DNA from: Lachnospiraceae bacterium
Lineage (GTDB): Bacteria; Bacillota; Clostridia; Lachnospirales; Lachnospiraceae
Direction: 5' to 3'
Assembly: GCA_024691125.1 (NCBI GenBank)
Contig: JAILNV010000128.1
Coordinates: 1-32,433, forward strand
Length of the DNA: 32,433 nucleotides
The notes beneath the pieces were generated by a model. That model was given only the letters and a program-made list of their open reading frames with translations. It had not been told where the DNA came from and did no database searches. The translations under genes and the position numbers were made by a program. Below, piece after piece: positions 1 to 27,411 of the stretch (position 1 is its first letter; each line of letters opens with the position of its first letter).

Positions 1-1242
1 TTCAAAATTCGTAAGCGATGAATTACCGGCACACCAGTCAAACTCCATGTCGGATATGATATAAAGCTTGGCAGGCATGTCTTCCTGCTTTACATGATTT
101 TTAACGGCTGTTCTCAATATGAGGTCAAAAGTCGCTGCTATATCCGTGTTGCTGCATTCATTATAACCCATGCAGTACCTCATCTTCTCAACTATATCCC
201 TTCCCTTTACTTCAACGAGCTGAGGCCTTGTTGAGAAGGTTATGAAATGTCCCTTGAACGCACCGGTATTATGCTCTGCAAAATAGATACCGAGCGACTG
301 TGCGACTGCTGCAGGCAGAGGCCTGAACCCGCCATACATGGAGCCGGATCCATCTACAACCGCAAGCGCATTTTCACTTCCGGTGAAGTTCTCAAGAGCA
401 TTCCATGTAACATCCATGGCACGTCTCTCATCCTCAGTAAATCCCATACGTCTCATCGACCTGTCTATTACAGGTGCCACAACATCATAAGGTGTAAGTG
501 TTCCTGTGTGCATAGCAGAAGGATCTGTTTCTGCCTTTTTAAGGAATGCGGAATACCTCTCCTGATCATTCCTGTAAAATGCTGCCCTGTACTTATACAA
601 TGCCTTGGATGCCTGCTTCTCATAGTCGAAGGAATAATCCTTCTCCCTGAGATTGTTCTCTATTATCCTGATATAGGAACGGAGAGCGGACAGGGTTCTC
701 CTGTATGCAGCATCCTTGTATCCCATCTTCCTTGCTATCCTCTTGGCTGTCAGTACCGTTTCCTTATTGCTTGCATTTACGGAAGGGAGCCACTTTGCAA
801 GAAGAGATACTTCTCCACCTTCCTTCATCGCATTGATATCCTTATCAAGCTTAGTCTTTAAGTACTCCATGAACATGTCCTCACAGGGAGTGCCCATGAG
901 AACAAGAAGATCATCATACCTTCCGTATTCAGCTACGTTTTCGATATTCTTCTTTACTGTTTCAGGCTCGTTTTTTGCAAGGTACCCAAGAATTATCTTA
1001 AACGCCCTTCTCTCACCGAGGCCGCCCCTTATATCCCTTGCATAGAAAAGGATCTTGGTTGCTATATCAGGATCTTCGGCGTATGCCTTTATAAACCTTC
1101 CGGTTATATCCTCTTCACACGCATTCCTTAATGCACCTATCGTTGCAAAAAGATCAAGGCAGTCCGACATTGTTGTAGCATATGTCACTGCTCCGTTTTC
1201 GGTATAAGCCCTGTTTGCTTCCTTCTTCAAAAAGTTCAACAT
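1..1242 (-). CDS. Ro60-like RNA-binding protein (TROVE/DUF2828 type with VWA-like domain), 3' end cut off
   Basis: The frame is open for 414 codons and runs off the left edge, so the C-terminus is missing. The N-terminal 280 residues are helical with the family pattern FYARDIRGGLGERR (about 66-79) and LLAKWLPSVNAS (about 147-158), which I recognise from DUF2828 proteins, bacterial relatives of the TROVE domain of Ro60. A VWA/MIDAS-like fold follows: DGSGS at 297-301, NTD at 365-367 and SDMEFD at 397-402, so all three metal-binding motifs are present. Family members and Ro60 bind structured RNAs, including Y RNAs and defective RNAs; that role is inferred here. The start was chosen at 1242 because an AGGAG lies 9 nt upstream; an ATG two codons earlier is too close to it. 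The gene shares its strand with the tRNA-like RNA modules at 1295-1512 and is divergent from the WYL regulator. Confidence 0.8.
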   Translation of the reverse strand, partial: MLNFLKKEANRAYTENGAVTYATTMSDCLDLFATIGALRNACEEDITGRFIKAYAEDPDIATKILFYARDIRGGLGERRAFKIILGYLAKNEPETVKKNIENVAEYGRYDDLLVLMGTPCEDMFMEYLKTKLDKDINAMKEGGEVSLLAKWLPSVNASNKETVLTAKRIARKMGYKDAAYRRTLSALRSYIRIIENNLREKDYSFDYEKQASKALYKYRAAFYRNDQERYSAFLKKAETDPSAMHTGTLTPYDVVAPVIDRSMRRMGFTEDERRAMDVTWNALENFTGSENALAVVDGSGSMYGGFRPLPAAVAQSLGIYFAEHNTGAFKGHFITFSTRPQLVEVKGRDIVEKMRYCMGYNECSNTDIAATFDLILRTAVKNHVKQEDMPAKLYIISDMEFDWCAGNSSLTNFE

Positions 1243-1265
1243 TTTCATTCACTCCTTTTTTATTC

Positions 1266-1295
1266 GGTTTGCGGTATTGTGGCTTCCCGCAAACC
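1266..1295 (-). promoter_or_regulatory. 9-bp hairpin just before the ribosome binding site of the Ro60-like gene
   Basis: GGTTTGCGG and CCGCAAACC pair perfectly around a 12-nt loop on the minus strand. A short A-rich stretch and AGGAG follow. There is no U-tract, so it is not a normal terminator. It may separate the upstream RNA modules from the mRNA (processing or stability) or affect translation. Function is inferred. Confidence 0.5.
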
Positions 1296-1400
1296 AACAA
1301 GATACAGTTTTTCACCACCGCGGGATCCTCCCCCGCAAGAACTGGCCGTGCCACAGCGGCCGTTCAATGGTTCCCAAAGGATTGCTGTATGTATCTTTCA
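1295..1400 (-). ncRNA. Second Y-RNA-like module with a bulged closing helix
   Basis: This minus-strand module is closed by AAGATACA (1390-1397) pairing with TGTATCTT (1299-1306). Beyond a bulged G the helix can continue with U-A and two G-U pairs. The 5' strand and following bases, AAAGAtACATACAGCAA, match the upstream tRNA-like module except for one base, and the bulged G is in the same place. Inside are two hairpins. GAACGGCCG pairs with CGGCC-A-GTTC (1339-1365, one bulged A). GCGGG pairs with CCCGC around a 7-nt loop (1320-1336), the size of a tRNA T-arm but without a TTCRA loop. I read it as a diverged second copy of the Y-like RNA; the insert has lost most tRNA identity. Alternatively it is only leader structure of the mRNA. 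Confidence 0.5.
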
Positions 1401-1512
1401 TACAAGACACATTTCATTAGGAACAGGATTCGAACCTGCGTCTGCATGACTAAAAATCATGTGATCTACCAATTAAACGATCCCGGATTGAGTTGCTGTA
1501 TGTGTCTTTATG
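1399..1512 (-). ncRNA. tRNA-mimicking Y-RNA-like element (tRNA-Lys UUU fold)
   Basis: On the minus strand CATAAAGACACAT (1500-1512) pairs with ATGTGTCTT-G-TATG (1399-1412), a 13-bp helix with one bulged G. It encloses a tRNA-like fold. The T-arm is GCAGG/CCTGT with loop TTCGAAT (1423-1439), the variable loop has 5 nt, and the anticodon arm is CATGA/TCATG with loop TTTTTAG and triplet UUU at 1452-1454. The D-loop is AATTGGTA (1467-1474) with an imperfect D-stem. The acceptor position has only about 4 bp (GGGA 1481-1484 with TCCT 1419-1422) and no CCA. Length, bulged closing helix, tRNA mimicry and position beside a Ro60-like gene all match the known logic of YrlA-type bacterial Y RNAs. A decayed tRNA-Lys is the alternative, but the long outer helix argues against it. 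Confidence 0.65.
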
Positions 1513-1559
1513 TGCTTATGGTACATTATGAGAAGGGATAATAAAAGAAGCAGAATGCA

Positions 1560-1588
1560 ATTATATTGTAACCCCAAAATATTTGCAT
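1560..1588 (-). promoter_or_regulatory. Predicted promoter for the Y-like RNA / Ro60-like transcript
   Basis: TATAAT lies at 1565-1560 on the minus strand, with a weak -35 (ATGCAA, 1588-1583) 17 nt upstream. Transcription would start near 1553, about 40 nt before the first RNA module. The poor -35 would fit activation by a regulator. It coincides with the -35 hexamer of the divergent promoter. Confidence 0.4.
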
Positions 1589-1611
1589 AAATCCTTCTAT
1601 TCTGTTATTAT
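1583..1611 (+). promoter_or_regulatory. Predicted promoter of the WYL regulator gene
   Basis: TTGCAT (1583-1588), a 17-nt spacer and TATTAT (1606-1611) make a good sigma-A-type promoter. Transcription would begin near 1618 and include the structured leader at 1640-1693. Confidence 0.5.
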
Positions 1612-1617
1612 TTGATT

Positions 1618-1732
1618 ATCTGACGACCCCATATAGGATGAACGGATATGACGAAGTCATATTCAGCGTCCGTTCCGACGATTGGCCGCTGAACATAGGT
1701 GAGGGGGCAATTCATATTTCATAGGAGAAATT
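1618..1732 (+). promoter_or_regulatory. Structured 5' leader with a pseudoknot before the WYL regulator
   Basis: Three perfect helices are possible. GAACGGA (1640-1646) pairs with TCCGTTC (1669-1675). Nested inside, TATGAC (1647-1652) pairs with GTCATA (1656-1661) around a GAA loop. TTCAGCG (1662-1668), left as a bulge, pairs with CGCTGAA (1687-1693) outside the first helix, which makes an H-type pseudoknot. CCCC (1627-1630) could also pair with the G-run at 1703-1707. The ribosome binding site AGGAG (1723-1727) is 5 nt before the ATG. I do not recognise a known riboswitch or ribozyme. The inverted repeats could instead act as DNA operators. Confidence 0.5.
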
Positions 1733-2725
1733 ATGACTGAAAAATATAAGATTTATATACCGGAAGATATGAAATCCCGTCTTATGAACGATGCTGAACT
1801 GTTTGAATTCATGAAAAAAGACGGTTCCATCAACTTAAATGCTTTTCTGAAGGAACTACTCATAAATTACTTCGATGAGTACAGAGACCGAAAGGCCAAA
1901 CTACTTGATACCATCCTCACAGATCTTGGGCAGTTTCCTTCCATATCCCCTAAAGATGCCGAAACTATAGCCGACAGGATCATTAATACATACATGAAAA
2001 GTGAAAAATACAGATCTGACCGCAGCACTGCCATCACCCTTACTGTAAGCGGACGATCCCTGGATGTTATGCGCGCTATAGAGAATAACCTCTTAACTGA
2101 TATATCTCTGTCCCAGTATATAAATGATCTCTTGAGCTCATATCTTTCCATTGCGCGAAATGACCGCGAGGTTATCATCTTCAGGGATACCTTTGAGGTG
2201 CTAAATGAAGCAATACAAAAGAAAAGGATAATAACGTTTTCAACATCCTCTGCCGAAAATCTGGTATTTACGGTTAAACCATATATCATAGCTGCATCCA
2301 AAGAAGAGCAATGTAACTATCTTCTGTGTTCAGATACTACTCACAGATCTCTTCATACGTACAGGGTATCAAGGATAAAAGCACTGTATACAACATCCGA
2401 CTGTTTTATCCCTGACGATGACGATCTTCTGAAATTGCAGGACATAGCAAGAAGAAATCCGTCTTCGACATCCAAAAACATAGATGCAGTAGTACAGCTG
2501 ACCGATAGAGGTGTCCACAAATTCCATATGATCGTAAAAAACAGACCAGATGTGCTGAGAAGGGAAGGAAATACCTATTACTTCAGCTGGCCCAAAAGAG
2601 CCCTTGAAGACTATTTCCGCCGTTTTGGATATGATGCTCTTTTCATCTCTCCTGAAGAATGCCGGGAATCGATGAAGTATTTCTATGGCAGATCATTAGA
2701 TACATATAACAGGAACAGATTATGA
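1733..2725 (+). CDS. RHH-WYL transcriptional regulator
   Basis: The protein has 330 residues. Two segments near the N-terminus have the beta-alpha-alpha pattern of ribbon-helix-helix DNA-binding domains: KYKIYIPEDMKSRL through about residue 48, and AITLTVSGRSLDVMRAIENN through about residue 142. A WYL domain follows from about 160 to 240, with PYIIAASKEEQCNYLLC and the closing LHTYRVSRIKAL typical of the fold; the WYL tripeptide itself is NYL. A C-terminal extension reaches residue 330. WYL domains act as ligand-sensing parts of bacterial regulators, often of defence or stress genes. The gene is divergent from the Ro60-like/Y-RNA-like unit with overlapping promoters, so it probably controls that unit and itself. 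RHH assignment is by pattern only; WYL is the firmer call. Confidence 0.75.
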   Translation: MTEKYKIYIPEDMKSRLMNDAELFEFMKKDGSINLNAFLKELLINYFDEYRDRKAKLLDTILTDLGQFPSISPKDAETIADRIINTYMKSEKYRSDRSTAITLTVSGRSLDVMRAIENNLLTDISLSQYINDLLSSYLSIARNDREVIIFRDTFEVLNEAIQKKRIITFSTSSAENLVFTVKPYIIAASKEEQCNYLLCSDTTHRSLHTYRVSRIKALYTTSDCFIPDDDDLLKLQDIARRNPSSTSKNIDAVVQLTDRGVHKFHMIVKNRPDVLRREGNTYYFSWPKRALEDYFRRFGYDALFISPEECRESMKYFYGRSLDTYNRNRL

Positions 2726-25686: not shown

Positions 25687-27411
25687 TTAATAACCGACCT
25701 TGATCGACTCCTGCGTCAGCACATGCTGTTCCAGCTCATCTATCTGTTCACCTATCGTATCATTAAGCTCCTTCAGCGTTTCATCCGGATCGGCGCCGTT
25801 CCACACCTTGGTAAATGCTATTTCCAGCTGTACCCAGTAATTACCGGCCTCTATCATTTTGGGAAGCGGAACCGATTTCTCATATTCCTGCATTACGTTT
25901 CCGATCTCGGTATCTTCATAATCGACATTCTTAAGGCATGATATCCTTCCCGCCTTCTTATATATGTCTGCTGCCCTTGTATATGCCATATACTCGGCAA
26001 AATCATTTGCCGTTTCCTTATTAAACGAATATCCGTTTACAACAACGGTAGATGTTTCGGAAAGTCCTCTTGCCTTAAGCGTAGTGCTTATGTCCGGAAG
26101 CACGGCAACACCATAGTCATAATTGAATTCACCGTTCTCTCTTGCTTCCCTGATCTTGGCTATGGCATCCGTCGTAGCTACGGTAAATACCGTTTTTCCC
26201 TCTATGAACTCTTCAAGAATACTGTCATAGGTAACTGCTTTGGAATCGATGGAGAAGAACTGGTTAATGTTCTGATATACCTTAAGACAGTCTACTGCCT
26301 GCTGGTTGTATATATTGAAATAGGAATTGTCGTCTCCGTCCTCTCCACCTACGTTCATATAGTTTCCTACAAAGAAATAGTTGTAGAATATGTCCGAAAC
26401 ATCCCACTTAAAGATAGCCTCAACCTCTTCCGGCGCATCATAGTTGTTGGCAAATGTAAGGATATCATCAATCGTAGCCGGTATCATGTTGGCAAGCTTT
26501 TCAAGTACCTGCGGATCAGCCGTAACATCCTCTTCACCCATCGGGTCTTCCTCGGAAGCACCGTCTTCTCCCTGTTCGTCACCTGCATCTTCGAAAGCCT
26601 GTTCCGAATCGTCTTCCTGTCCTGTTGTATCGGAATTGCCGGCAGAAGAACCCACTGTATTTACAACCTTGATCCCGTTATTCGAGGCGGTCGCCGGTTC
26701 TCCCGTTTCATTACCGCTTAATCCCGTCACGCTTCCACCCGAAGCTTCGCCTGCCGTATCTGCATTAGCTCCGGTATCCTGCTCTTCCATCTCCGCATAG
26801 AAAGCTTCACTGTTTTCGTCATCCCCCATATTCTGCTTGGCGATGTTGGCCATATATGTCTTATTGTACAGGAGAAAATTGGTTTCATAATACAGCGGAT
26901 ACCCCACATACTTACCCGCACAGCGTATAGCATGAAGTGATGTCTGCGGATAATTAATGGCGTTAATAACCTTCTGCGGATCGGTTATCTCTGACGCCAG
27001 TCCCGCATAATATGCTTTCATAAGATTATCATGTGTTGTTATATAGAGATCGGGTGCAACGACAGTCTCTCCGTTTTCGACCGATCCCTCATATACGGAC
27101 GCGTGGTTTATCTGTTCCAGCAGCTCTACTCCGCTCACAAGCTCAGGCTTAACCTTTACTCCGGTCTCAGTCCTGTATGCAAGAGCAATATCCGTTAAGT
27201 ATTCGGTCAGCGAATCATCGGCGTACCACAATATGACAGTACCGTCCTCATGAAGGGCTGCCGCCTTATCCGCAGCCGCCGACACCCCTGCAGGCTTCAG
27301 GCCTTCGCCTTCCCTGTCACCCGAATACATCGGATCTTTTATTTTTACTGCCAACAGTATCATTGCAGCCACAAGAACGACTGCAATGATCACGCTTACT
27401 ATCCTCTTCAT
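25687..27411 (-). CDS. Membrane-anchored solute-binding-like protein with disordered insert
   Basis: The 574-residue protein resembles family 1 extracellular solute-binding proteins of ABC sugar importers: TVILWYADDSLTEYLTDIAL near the N-terminus, YPLYYETNFLLYNKT in the middle and FAEYMAYTRAADIYKKAGRI towards the end. The N-terminus is an uncleaved-looking membrane helix (about 5-23) without a lipobox Cys, so it is tethered rather than lipidated. About 100 residues (196-298) rich in Gly, Ser, Asp and Glu interrupt the fold. No permease or ATPase gene is next to it, so transport is unproven and sensing or scaffolding is possible. Its ribosome binding site lies in a 14-bp tandem repeat. Confidence 0.75.
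   Translation of the reverse strand: MKRIVSVIIAVVLVAAMILLAVKIKDPMYSGDREGEGLKPAGVSAAADKAAALHEDGTVILWYADDSLTEYLTDIALAYRTETGVKVKPELVSGVELLEQINHASVYEGSVENGETVVAPDLYITTHDNLMKAYYAGLASEITDPQKVINAINYPQTSLHAIRCAGKYVGYPLYYETNFLLYNKTYMANIAKQNMGDDENSEAFYAEMEEQDTGANADTAGEASGGSVTGLSGNETGEPATASNNGIKVVNTVGSSAGNSDTTGQEDDSEQAFEDAGDEQGEDGASEEDPMGEEDVTADPQVLEKLANMIPATIDDILTFANNYDAPEEVEAIFKWDVSDIFYNYFFVGNYMNVGGEDGDDNSYFNIYNQQAVDCLKVYQNINQFFSIDSKAVTYDSILEEFIEGKTVFTVATTDAIAKIREARENGEFNYDYGVAVLPDISTTLKARGLSETSTVVVNGYSFNKETANDFAEYMAYTRAADIYKKAGRISCLKNVDYEDTEIGNVMQEYEKSVPLPKMIEAGNYWVQLEIAFTKVWNGADPDETLKELNDTIGEQIDELEQHVLTQESIKVGY

Follow-up and report, generated by a model that had tools for sequence, protein, structure and literature searches.

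Directly upstream of a gene for a protein of the Pfam family DUF2828, at the beginning of a 32,433-nt stretch of DNA from a Lachnospiraceae bacterium (GCA_024691125.1, contig JAILNV010000128.1, positions 1 to 32,433; hereafter the window), lies an array of small structured units that recurs beside DUF2828 genes of bacteria and phages and apparently represents a noncoding RNA family undescribed so far. Each unit is built from a 7–9 bp helix around a variable insert (consensus AAGNNNC-NN-ACAGCAA ... GNNNCUU-G), the order being 5' arm (mostly AAGNNNC), two free bases, ACAGCAA, insert, complementary 3' arm and a G. We consider it likely that the units are Y-like RNAs bound by the predicted Ro60-like DUF2828 protein, array and protein being encoded within a WYL-controlled RNA-repair operon. 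An initial annotation of the window had described one tRNA-mimicking, Y-like RNA in the leader of this gene, together with a divergent WYL regulator; the observation was confirmed and turned out to be larger than described, and its interpretation is supported. Taken together, the data point to a second, separate Ro60-Y RNA machine in bacteria and phages.

Covariation of the unit helix

Three sets of loci were compared. The family-level set comprised 150 genomes of the window organism's family, 19 of which contained DUF2828; for the bacterial set, an alignment of 13 proteins was searched against one genome per species (84,980 species), and the best 80 of at least 552 relatives were used; a scan of viral contigs gave 534 relatives, of which 80 were kept. 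A complementary partner arm was found for 192 of 233 sites (82%; 89 of 99 loci) versus 32% with swapped arms, and the base following the 3' arm was G in 187 of the 192 partnered sites. As the partners in this first test were chosen by complementarity, its per-pair counts are biased, and a test with anchor-chosen partners was therefore run, which is unbiased, as is the comparison within loci described below.

Anchor-chosen partners were available for 171 of 174 sites, and the three free positions all paired in 78% of the 171, versus 38% with the arms swapped (maximum 44% in 1000 swaps). Mutual information between the arms peaked at five expected partner pairs (0.30, 0.25, 0.44, 0.45 and 0.63), the two remaining expected pairs being nearly invariant with a mutual information of 0; elsewhere it was ≤0.13, and the shuffle maximum was 0.10. 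Two or more units were present in 59 of 89 loci, with all arms differing in 50 of these 59. Within a locus, a full fit was obtained in 78% of cases with a unit's own partner (136 units) versus 25% with the partner of another unit (292 comparisons), so that kinship of the loci does not explain the covariation. Judged by comparison of loci, the unit helix covaries and defines a family of structured RNA partners; the strong covariation answers the check on the outer helix proposed in the initial annotation.

Occurrence and specificity of the units

Strict units were identified in 77 of 80 bacterial DUF2828 loci (195 in sense and 7 in antisense orientation, 6 after single-base shuffling) and in 55 of 80 viral ones (135 sense, 1 antisense, 3 shuffled). 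After near-duplicates were collapsed, strict units remained in 76 of 79 clusters for bacteria and in 45 of 60 for viruses. The loose motif AC[AG]GCA[AG] occurred within 700 nt upstream of the gene in all 79 loci with at least 300 nt of upstream sequence, at a density of 3.37 per kb upstream versus 0.66 in coding sequence.

At the family level, AC[AG]GCAA was found within 900 nt upstream of DUF2828 in 16 of the 19 genomes. The site in L005 apparently lies inside the upstream gene, the actual unit reading ACAGCAC; the unit of L014 is a variant, AGCAGCAA, and the array of L012 sits farther upstream, before RtcB. Two strict patterns run over all 150 genomes gave 16 matches at 15 distinct sites (one site in G033 was matched twice), and the reversed-pattern controls gave one match altogether. 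Twelve of the 15 sites are followed by a DUF2828 gene at up to about 1.6 kb (RtcB intervenes in G051), and two precede RtcB in G135, a genome without a DUF2828 match. The strict patterns are insensitive, as they gave no match in 9 of the 19 DUF2828 genomes; a loose unit pattern matched 96 of 150 genomes and was discarded as useless.

Three further observations were made on units and arrays. In G135 (L151, contig C22), the two units before RtcB include one with a tRNA-like insert. An orphan unit (L248, G092:C220:3653-3701) had, by eye, neither DUF2828 nor RtcB among the frames within about 1.2 kb. The sequence TTCGCAACTTTTTTTCCGTGAT and close variants of it were seen by eye upstream of the arrays in L005, L006, L008, L013, L014 and L017.

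The array of the window and its close relatives

The features of the window are listed in Table 1. As described in the initial annotation, the ends (1500–1512 and 1399–1412) of a 114-nt element (1399–1512, minus strand) pair over 13 bp with a single bulged G (1403), which can be read directly from the sequence. The element is, however, one copy of a module repeated in arrays, and unit 2 next to it had been overlooked. Similarly, all 13 bp exist in the window, but the helix kept in relatives is 9 bp long (AAGACACAU/AUGUGUCUU, present in the window, L052, L053 and L070) and is followed by the conserved G. In every one of L052, L053 and L070, at least one of the four outer pairs past the bulged G is disrupted, and the same loci hold one extra upstream unit that is missing from the window (window 1508–1530 compared); the extra outer pairs therefore look like a deletion scar. 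From such comparisons, whole units seem to be gained and lost between relatives.

The 5' arm, linker and ACAGCAA of unit 1 are the same in L052, L053 and L070, and the sequence of unit 2 is nearly identical in L052. The insert of unit 2 shows no likeness to tRNA, and its minimum free energy fold closes the outer helix. Folding-energy z-scores of the two window units were −0.85 and −1.71; folding energy by itself is thus insufficient to reveal the units. The start codon of the DUF2828 gene follows 49 nt beyond the end of the last unit. No terminator-like site was found between array and gene, so that discrete RNAs would need processing of the leader. A promoter scan returned a single site, on the opposite strand and no better than chance.

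Table 1. Positions of the array, the flanking genes and further elements in the window.
Feature	Position	Strand	Basis and details
DUF2828 + DUF7788 (vWA-like) Ro-like protein gene, 416 aa, cut by contig end	1..1248	-	Pfam
Y-like unit 2	1298..1397	-	strict pattern; 5' arm AAGATAC 1391-1397, ACAGCAA 1382-1388
Y-like unit 2, 3' side		-	3' arm GTATCTT 1299-1305, conserved G 1298
Y-like unit 1	1403..1508	-	strict pattern; 5' arm AAGACAC 1502-1508, ACAGCAA 1493-1499
Y-like unit 1, 3' side		-	3' arm GTGTCTT 1404-1410, conserved G 1403
tRNA-Lys(UUU)-like insert of unit 1	1415..1488	-	ARAGORN tRNA-Lys(ttt)
Inner TGGGGT box, candidate regulator site	1571..1576	-	sequence
Outer TGGGGT box, candidate regulator site, 55 nt off inner box	1626..1631	-	sequence
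GA-cis RNA (RF02987, 63.4 bits), leader of WYL gene	1632-1718	+	Rfam
Divergent regulator gene: two RHH-like motifs, WYL, C-terminal domain	1733..2725	+	Pfam WYL 3.9e-06

tRNA mimicry and hybrid forms

The insert of unit 1 has the tRNA-Lys(UUU)-like core with a rudimentary acceptor stem and without CCA that had been claimed for it. In addition to the ARAGORN assignment, it matches the Rfam tRNA model RF00005 with 40.2 bits (E 3.8e-07; 1420–1483, minus strand; model positions 5–66 of 71). Its acceptor stem is shorter than the usual 7 bp, no CCA follows 3' of the insert, and the match ranks lowest in score among the 37 tRNA matches in the window's genome.

Features of this kind recur beside other DUF2828 genes. 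A T-loop core was found at 71 upstream sites in 56 of 80 loci, with none in antisense orientation there and none in 116 kb of coding sequence, and 54 of 192 bacterial inserts contain a strict T-loop. The description as a tRNA-mimicking RNA thus holds for unit 1, whereas most inserts fail the strict T-loop test. Of 17 loci scanned, 11 had an Rfam tRNA match above the gathering score in front of DUF2828. ARAGORN matches, 29 in all, were obtained upstream in 25 of 99 loci and show 15 different three-base anticodons plus three odd loops, whereas shuffled upstream regions gave no match; as the program reads both strands, antisense sequence is no valid control for these counts. The diversity of anticodons makes a normal tRNA unlikely. 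The tRNA-Asn match in L078, a locus close to a tRNA cluster, may be genuine. That the units in general are ordinary or decaying tRNA genes acquired beside the gene is hardly credible: ARAGORN and Rfam do label some of them tRNAs, and phage loci do hold many real tRNAs, but the low-scoring window insert with its short acceptor stem and missing CCA is enclosed by a covarying helix, the 29 matches carry 15 three-base pseudo-anticodons, and many units have no tRNA-like insert.

In 3 of 99 bacterial loci (L001, L003 and L005) and 8 of 86 viral ones (six distinct), a unit hairpin stands in place of the anticodon arm, and the antisense control gave no such form. In this hairpin a short loop joins the 3' arm to the 5' arm, which ACAGCA follows; a D-like arm precedes the hairpin and a T arm comes behind it. 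Five hybrid RNAs were folded; in four the D arm, unit hairpin and T arm are joined to an acceptor stem of 7 bp, whereas L235 does not fold in this way. L002 and L004 are similar to the hybrid form by eye. Among the viral loci, tRNA-like bodies with the unit hairpin replacing the anticodon arm were noted in L172, L175, L178, L181, L235 and L236. Rfam labels the hybrids scanned (L181, L235 and L236) as tRNAs of about 115 nt, a warning that some phage tRNA calls are tRNA-Y hybrids.

Predicted fold of the DUF2828 protein

The assignment of the window protein to the DUF2828 branch was borne out by Pfam matches to DUF2828 (PF11443, 4.2e-34) and DUF7788 (PF25043, 1.9e-24) for the product of the gene running from 1248 to 1 on the minus strand. 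DUF2828 is a Pfam family of unknown function for which NCBIfam and PADLOC hold no family, a search of the PDB by sequence yielded nothing meaningful, and the papers found to name DUF2828 all concern plants, as judged by their titles. Because the contig end leaves the window copy incomplete, the structure was modelled for the nearest full-length relative, L052 (96% identity over the window's 416 residues; predicted local distance difference test score, pLDDT, 83). The model combines a ring of helical repeats with a vWA fold, as in Ro60/TROVE proteins, and in a Foldseek search ranks 1–12 were all TROVE/Ro60/Rsr entries (E 4.3e-8 to 4.1e-4). The DUF2828 protein is thus predicted to fold like Ro60, a human protein of RNA quality control, in line with the original designation as Ro60-like. 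D298, S300, S302, T367 and D399 are invariant among 13 DUF2828 proteins; the D-x-S-x-S pattern formed by D298, S300 and S302 is presumably that of a vWA metal site.

RtcB and the divergent WYL regulator

RtcB, an RNA ligase, is encoded directly downstream of DUF2828 in 46 of the 78 loci with at least 400 nt of downstream sequence; in four further loci it lies upstream, at most 700 nt away and on the same strand. Relatives thus show the arrangement of rtc-type RNA-repair operons, RtcB next to a Ro-like gene, which fits the link to RNA repair made in the initial annotation; in L052 the order is regulator, units, DUF2828 and RtcB. A regulator of the window's RHH-WYL type is divergently encoded in 35 of 80 loci, together with downstream RtcB in 28. 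Two TGGGGT boxes are present in 21 of these 35 divergent loci, one in 9 and none in 5 (background 0.31 per kb on one strand, counted over whole loci including the boxes), and paired boxes are usually 55–56 nt apart in relatives, as in the window.

Pfam recognized WYL in the window regulator and no RHH family. The AlphaFold model (pLDDT 86.6) has strand-then-helices motifs at residues 2–65 and 98–138 before the WYL barrel and shows the tandem RHH, WYL barrel and C-terminal domain of RHH-WYL regulators, in keeping with the RHH-WYL designation of the initial annotation. The best Foldseek match was RspWYL1 (PDB 6oaw, E 1.3e-17), followed by PafBC, DriD, BrxR and CapW. RspWYL1, an accessory protein of type VI-D CRISPR, likewise has two RHH motifs, WYL and a C-terminal domain; it shares 19% identity with the window regulator, which differs in being divergent from an RNA-repair operon with paired boxes and is for this reason probably a transcription regulator. 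RspWYL1 binds single-stranded RNA preferentially according to the portion of PMC6547453 consulted, and by their PDB titles the DriD entries and one CapW entry are bound to single-stranded DNA. By analogy with these proteins, a nucleic-acid signal for the window regulator is plausible.

The GA-cis RNA in the leader of the regulator gene was rejected as a component of the system. Its 14 matches at E≤0.001 are scattered over the window's genome, and 10 of the 150 genomes contain matches, which marks it as a dispersed element, perhaps mobile or a regulon; no match scored above the gathering threshold in L052.

Units in phages

A DUF2828 homologue was found in 682 of 50,697 phage records, among them those of the B. 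subtilis phages FADO and PJN02. In each of six annotated phages of different hosts, ACAGCAA and a pairing partner occur close to the gene. In several mycobacteriophage records a DUF2828-type protein is already called "Ro-like RNA binding protein". In the 72 of 80 viral loci that were counted, 15 of 129 units are found downstream of the gene, and in Snenia, Alf5 and CoN_Ph7 this is the position of all ACAGCAA sites that have a partner and the G after it. In Listeria phage AG20, a promoter-like sequence (TTGACA-17-TATCAT) immediately precedes three units. These positions speak against an autoregulatory leader, in which the units would be a cis binding site through which DUF2828 controls its own mRNA, with no free RNA. 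Such feedback would agree with the 49 nt, free of terminator-like sites, between the last window unit and the start codon, and bacterial units were both sought and found upstream of the gene; it needs, however, no arrays with inserts differing from unit to unit, and we regard it as improbable.

A related phage has been studied experimentally. In the sections of PMC12282133 drawn upon here, Listeria phage CKA15 is described as having an Rsr-like protein by HHpred (CKA15_055), also present in purified particles, and as transcribing three unannotated regions in the 2 kb upstream at very high levels, with Y RNAs as the suggested products; the authors give AG20 as >99% identical to CKA15 and cite Chen et al. 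2014 for mycobacteriophage Y RNAs. The AG20 protein is of the DUF2828 type with three units directly before its gene, and the same 411 bases of the AG20 array occur in the CKA15 record (OR088597.1, 25,210–25,620) within the upstream 2-kb stretch. In contrast, the single RNA region given with coordinates in those sections (26,236–26,727) contains no unit. The units are candidates for some of the puzzling abundant RNA of Listeria phages. The corresponding stretch of AG20 (L242 2909–3568, about 26,140–26,799) is probably CKA15's most abundant RNA region; it is free of units, with a promoter-like sequence before it. In the titles and abstract openings searched, which left subscription papers mostly uncovered, no Y RNAs linked to DUF2828 were found except for the suggestion for CKA15.

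A skipping-rope RNA (RF02924, 62.4 bits) was found amid phage tRNAs near a DUF2828 gene (L167 6185–6281). It was rejected as a phage form of the units because its structure is different.

The wide phage spread, the diverse anticodon loops and the RtcB neighbourhood would also suit a ribonucleoprotein that, rather than serving quality control, shields cells or phages from tRNA-cutting toxins through varied tRNA mimics. YrlA as a competitive inhibitor of anticodon nucleases is a possibility raised by Hughes et al. (PMC7790460, in the part considered here). We judge a pure decoy function rather unlikely, as a strict T-loop is missing from 138 of the 192 bacterial inserts and Rfam tRNA matched none of the units that precede the gene in Listeria phage AG20 and Enterococcus phage VRE9_3.

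Discussion

The reading as a DUF2828-bound Y-like RNA array in an RNA-repair operon joins what the comparison of loci provides, namely a covarying unit array, a Ro60-like predicted fold, partial tRNA mimicry, frequent RtcB and a divergent RHH-WYL regulator with boxes, to a working scheme modelled on Ro60/YrlA and the Salmonella RNA-repair operon, from which we infer binding, release from the leader, the role of the insert and the signal of the regulator. In this scheme, the DUF2828 ring would grip each unit via the helix, the bulged G and ACAGCAA, as Ro60 grips the end helix of Y RNA, and the insert (a tRNA mimic in unit 1) would act as effector, either by covering the ring or by docking it to an enzyme that recognises tRNA. 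The whole ribonucleoprotein may handle broken tRNAs that RtcB would reseal. The regulator would sense single-stranded RNA or DNA made by damage and turn on array, DUF2828 and rtcB via one promoter.

Several findings weigh against the reading. The link to RNA damage is drawn by analogy. Foldseek TM-scores of the L052 model were just about 0.38–0.55, TROVE was absent among the Pfam matches of DUF2828 proteins, and hhalign with shallow DUF2828 and TROVE alignments gave a probability of 6%, so that a sequence-profile link between the two families is weak and was rejected. L010 has no recognisable unit, bacterial L036, L048 and L097 and 25 of 80 viral loci have no strict unit, and a few viral units, such as the ACGGCAA sites of L193 and L194, may be chance matches. 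With 138 inserts lacking a strict T-loop, tRNA mimicry is no common denominator of the family. RtcB is not directly downstream of DUF2828 in 32 of the 78 loci and was not found in the window's own genome, which is 89% complete and in which the contig ends inside DUF2828.

A broader proposal, which we put forward tentatively, is that of a second Ro-Y RNA lineage with an RNA code of its own: a portable helix module would be joined to tRNA bodies in several connections. It would enclose a whole tRNA mimic (as in the window) or some other insert, or else substitute for the anticodon arm in a tRNA body whose acceptor stem is complete. Bacteria and large phages would then use arrays to load one Ro-like ring with tRNA-shaped adaptors or decoys that are interchangeable and serve tRNA repair and defence.

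Given a candidate RNA partner whose signature is defined and covaries, DUF2828 becomes a testable Ro60-like machine and a natural comparison for how Ro proteins and Y RNAs work, a matter that to our knowledge is not settled even for Ro60.

Comparison with known Ro60-Y RNA and RNA-repair systems

As a control, TROVE genes were sought in 196 order-level and 245 class-level genomes, which gave six genomes and 12 overlapping loci. The leaders of four class-level loci (L153–L156) show, by eye, Y-like RNAs in tandem, the middle part being tRNA-like in one or more of them. Rfam YrlA gave no match in the window (1240–1735, E≤1) and did not exceed its gathering score in any of 18 phage loci; as six TROVE loci were likewise unmatched, the model was rejected as a discriminator. 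The tandem Y-like RNAs of L153–L156 carry the TROVE signature and are out of reach of Rfam YrlA at the gathering score.

The layout of bacterial Y RNAs with Rsr (PMC8394870, as far as drawn upon here) has a close counterpart in the window: a Ro-like gene, tandem leader RNAs, an end helix, a variable insert and a tRNA-like domain are common to both. If DUF2828 is counted as Ro family, the units lie beside a Ro-family gene, have paired ends and include a tRNA-like domain (unit 1, and the T-loop core of many loci). The likeness to Y RNAs claimed initially therefore stands for the end helix and insert layout, but TROVE-linked Y RNAs have another signature. The TROVE-type signature GNAGTG..GAGNTACTTC was present in 6 of 12 TROVE loci and in none of 99 bacterial or 86 viral DUF2828 loci, whereas strict ACAGCAA units were absent from all 12 TROVE loci; GAGNTACTTC by itself occurred in 8 of 12 TROVE, 4 of 99 bacterial and 10 of 86 viral DUF2828 loci. 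By eye, the tRNA domain runs from T arm to D arm in the TROVE loci, whereas the window retains the order of tRNA. YrlA, with its T arm before the D arm inside the end helix, may be a circular permutation of the hybrid form, as we infer from the order of the arms.

The closest parallel for the operon as a whole is rsr-yrlBA-rtcBA of Salmonella (PMC7790460, in the part considered here), which likewise combines a Ro-like protein, a tRNA-mimic RNA, RtcB and a divergent regulator. The two systems differ in their proteins: the Salmonella operon uses TROVE and the sigma54 activator RtcR, whereas DUF2828 and an RHH-WYL regulator occupy these places in the system described here.

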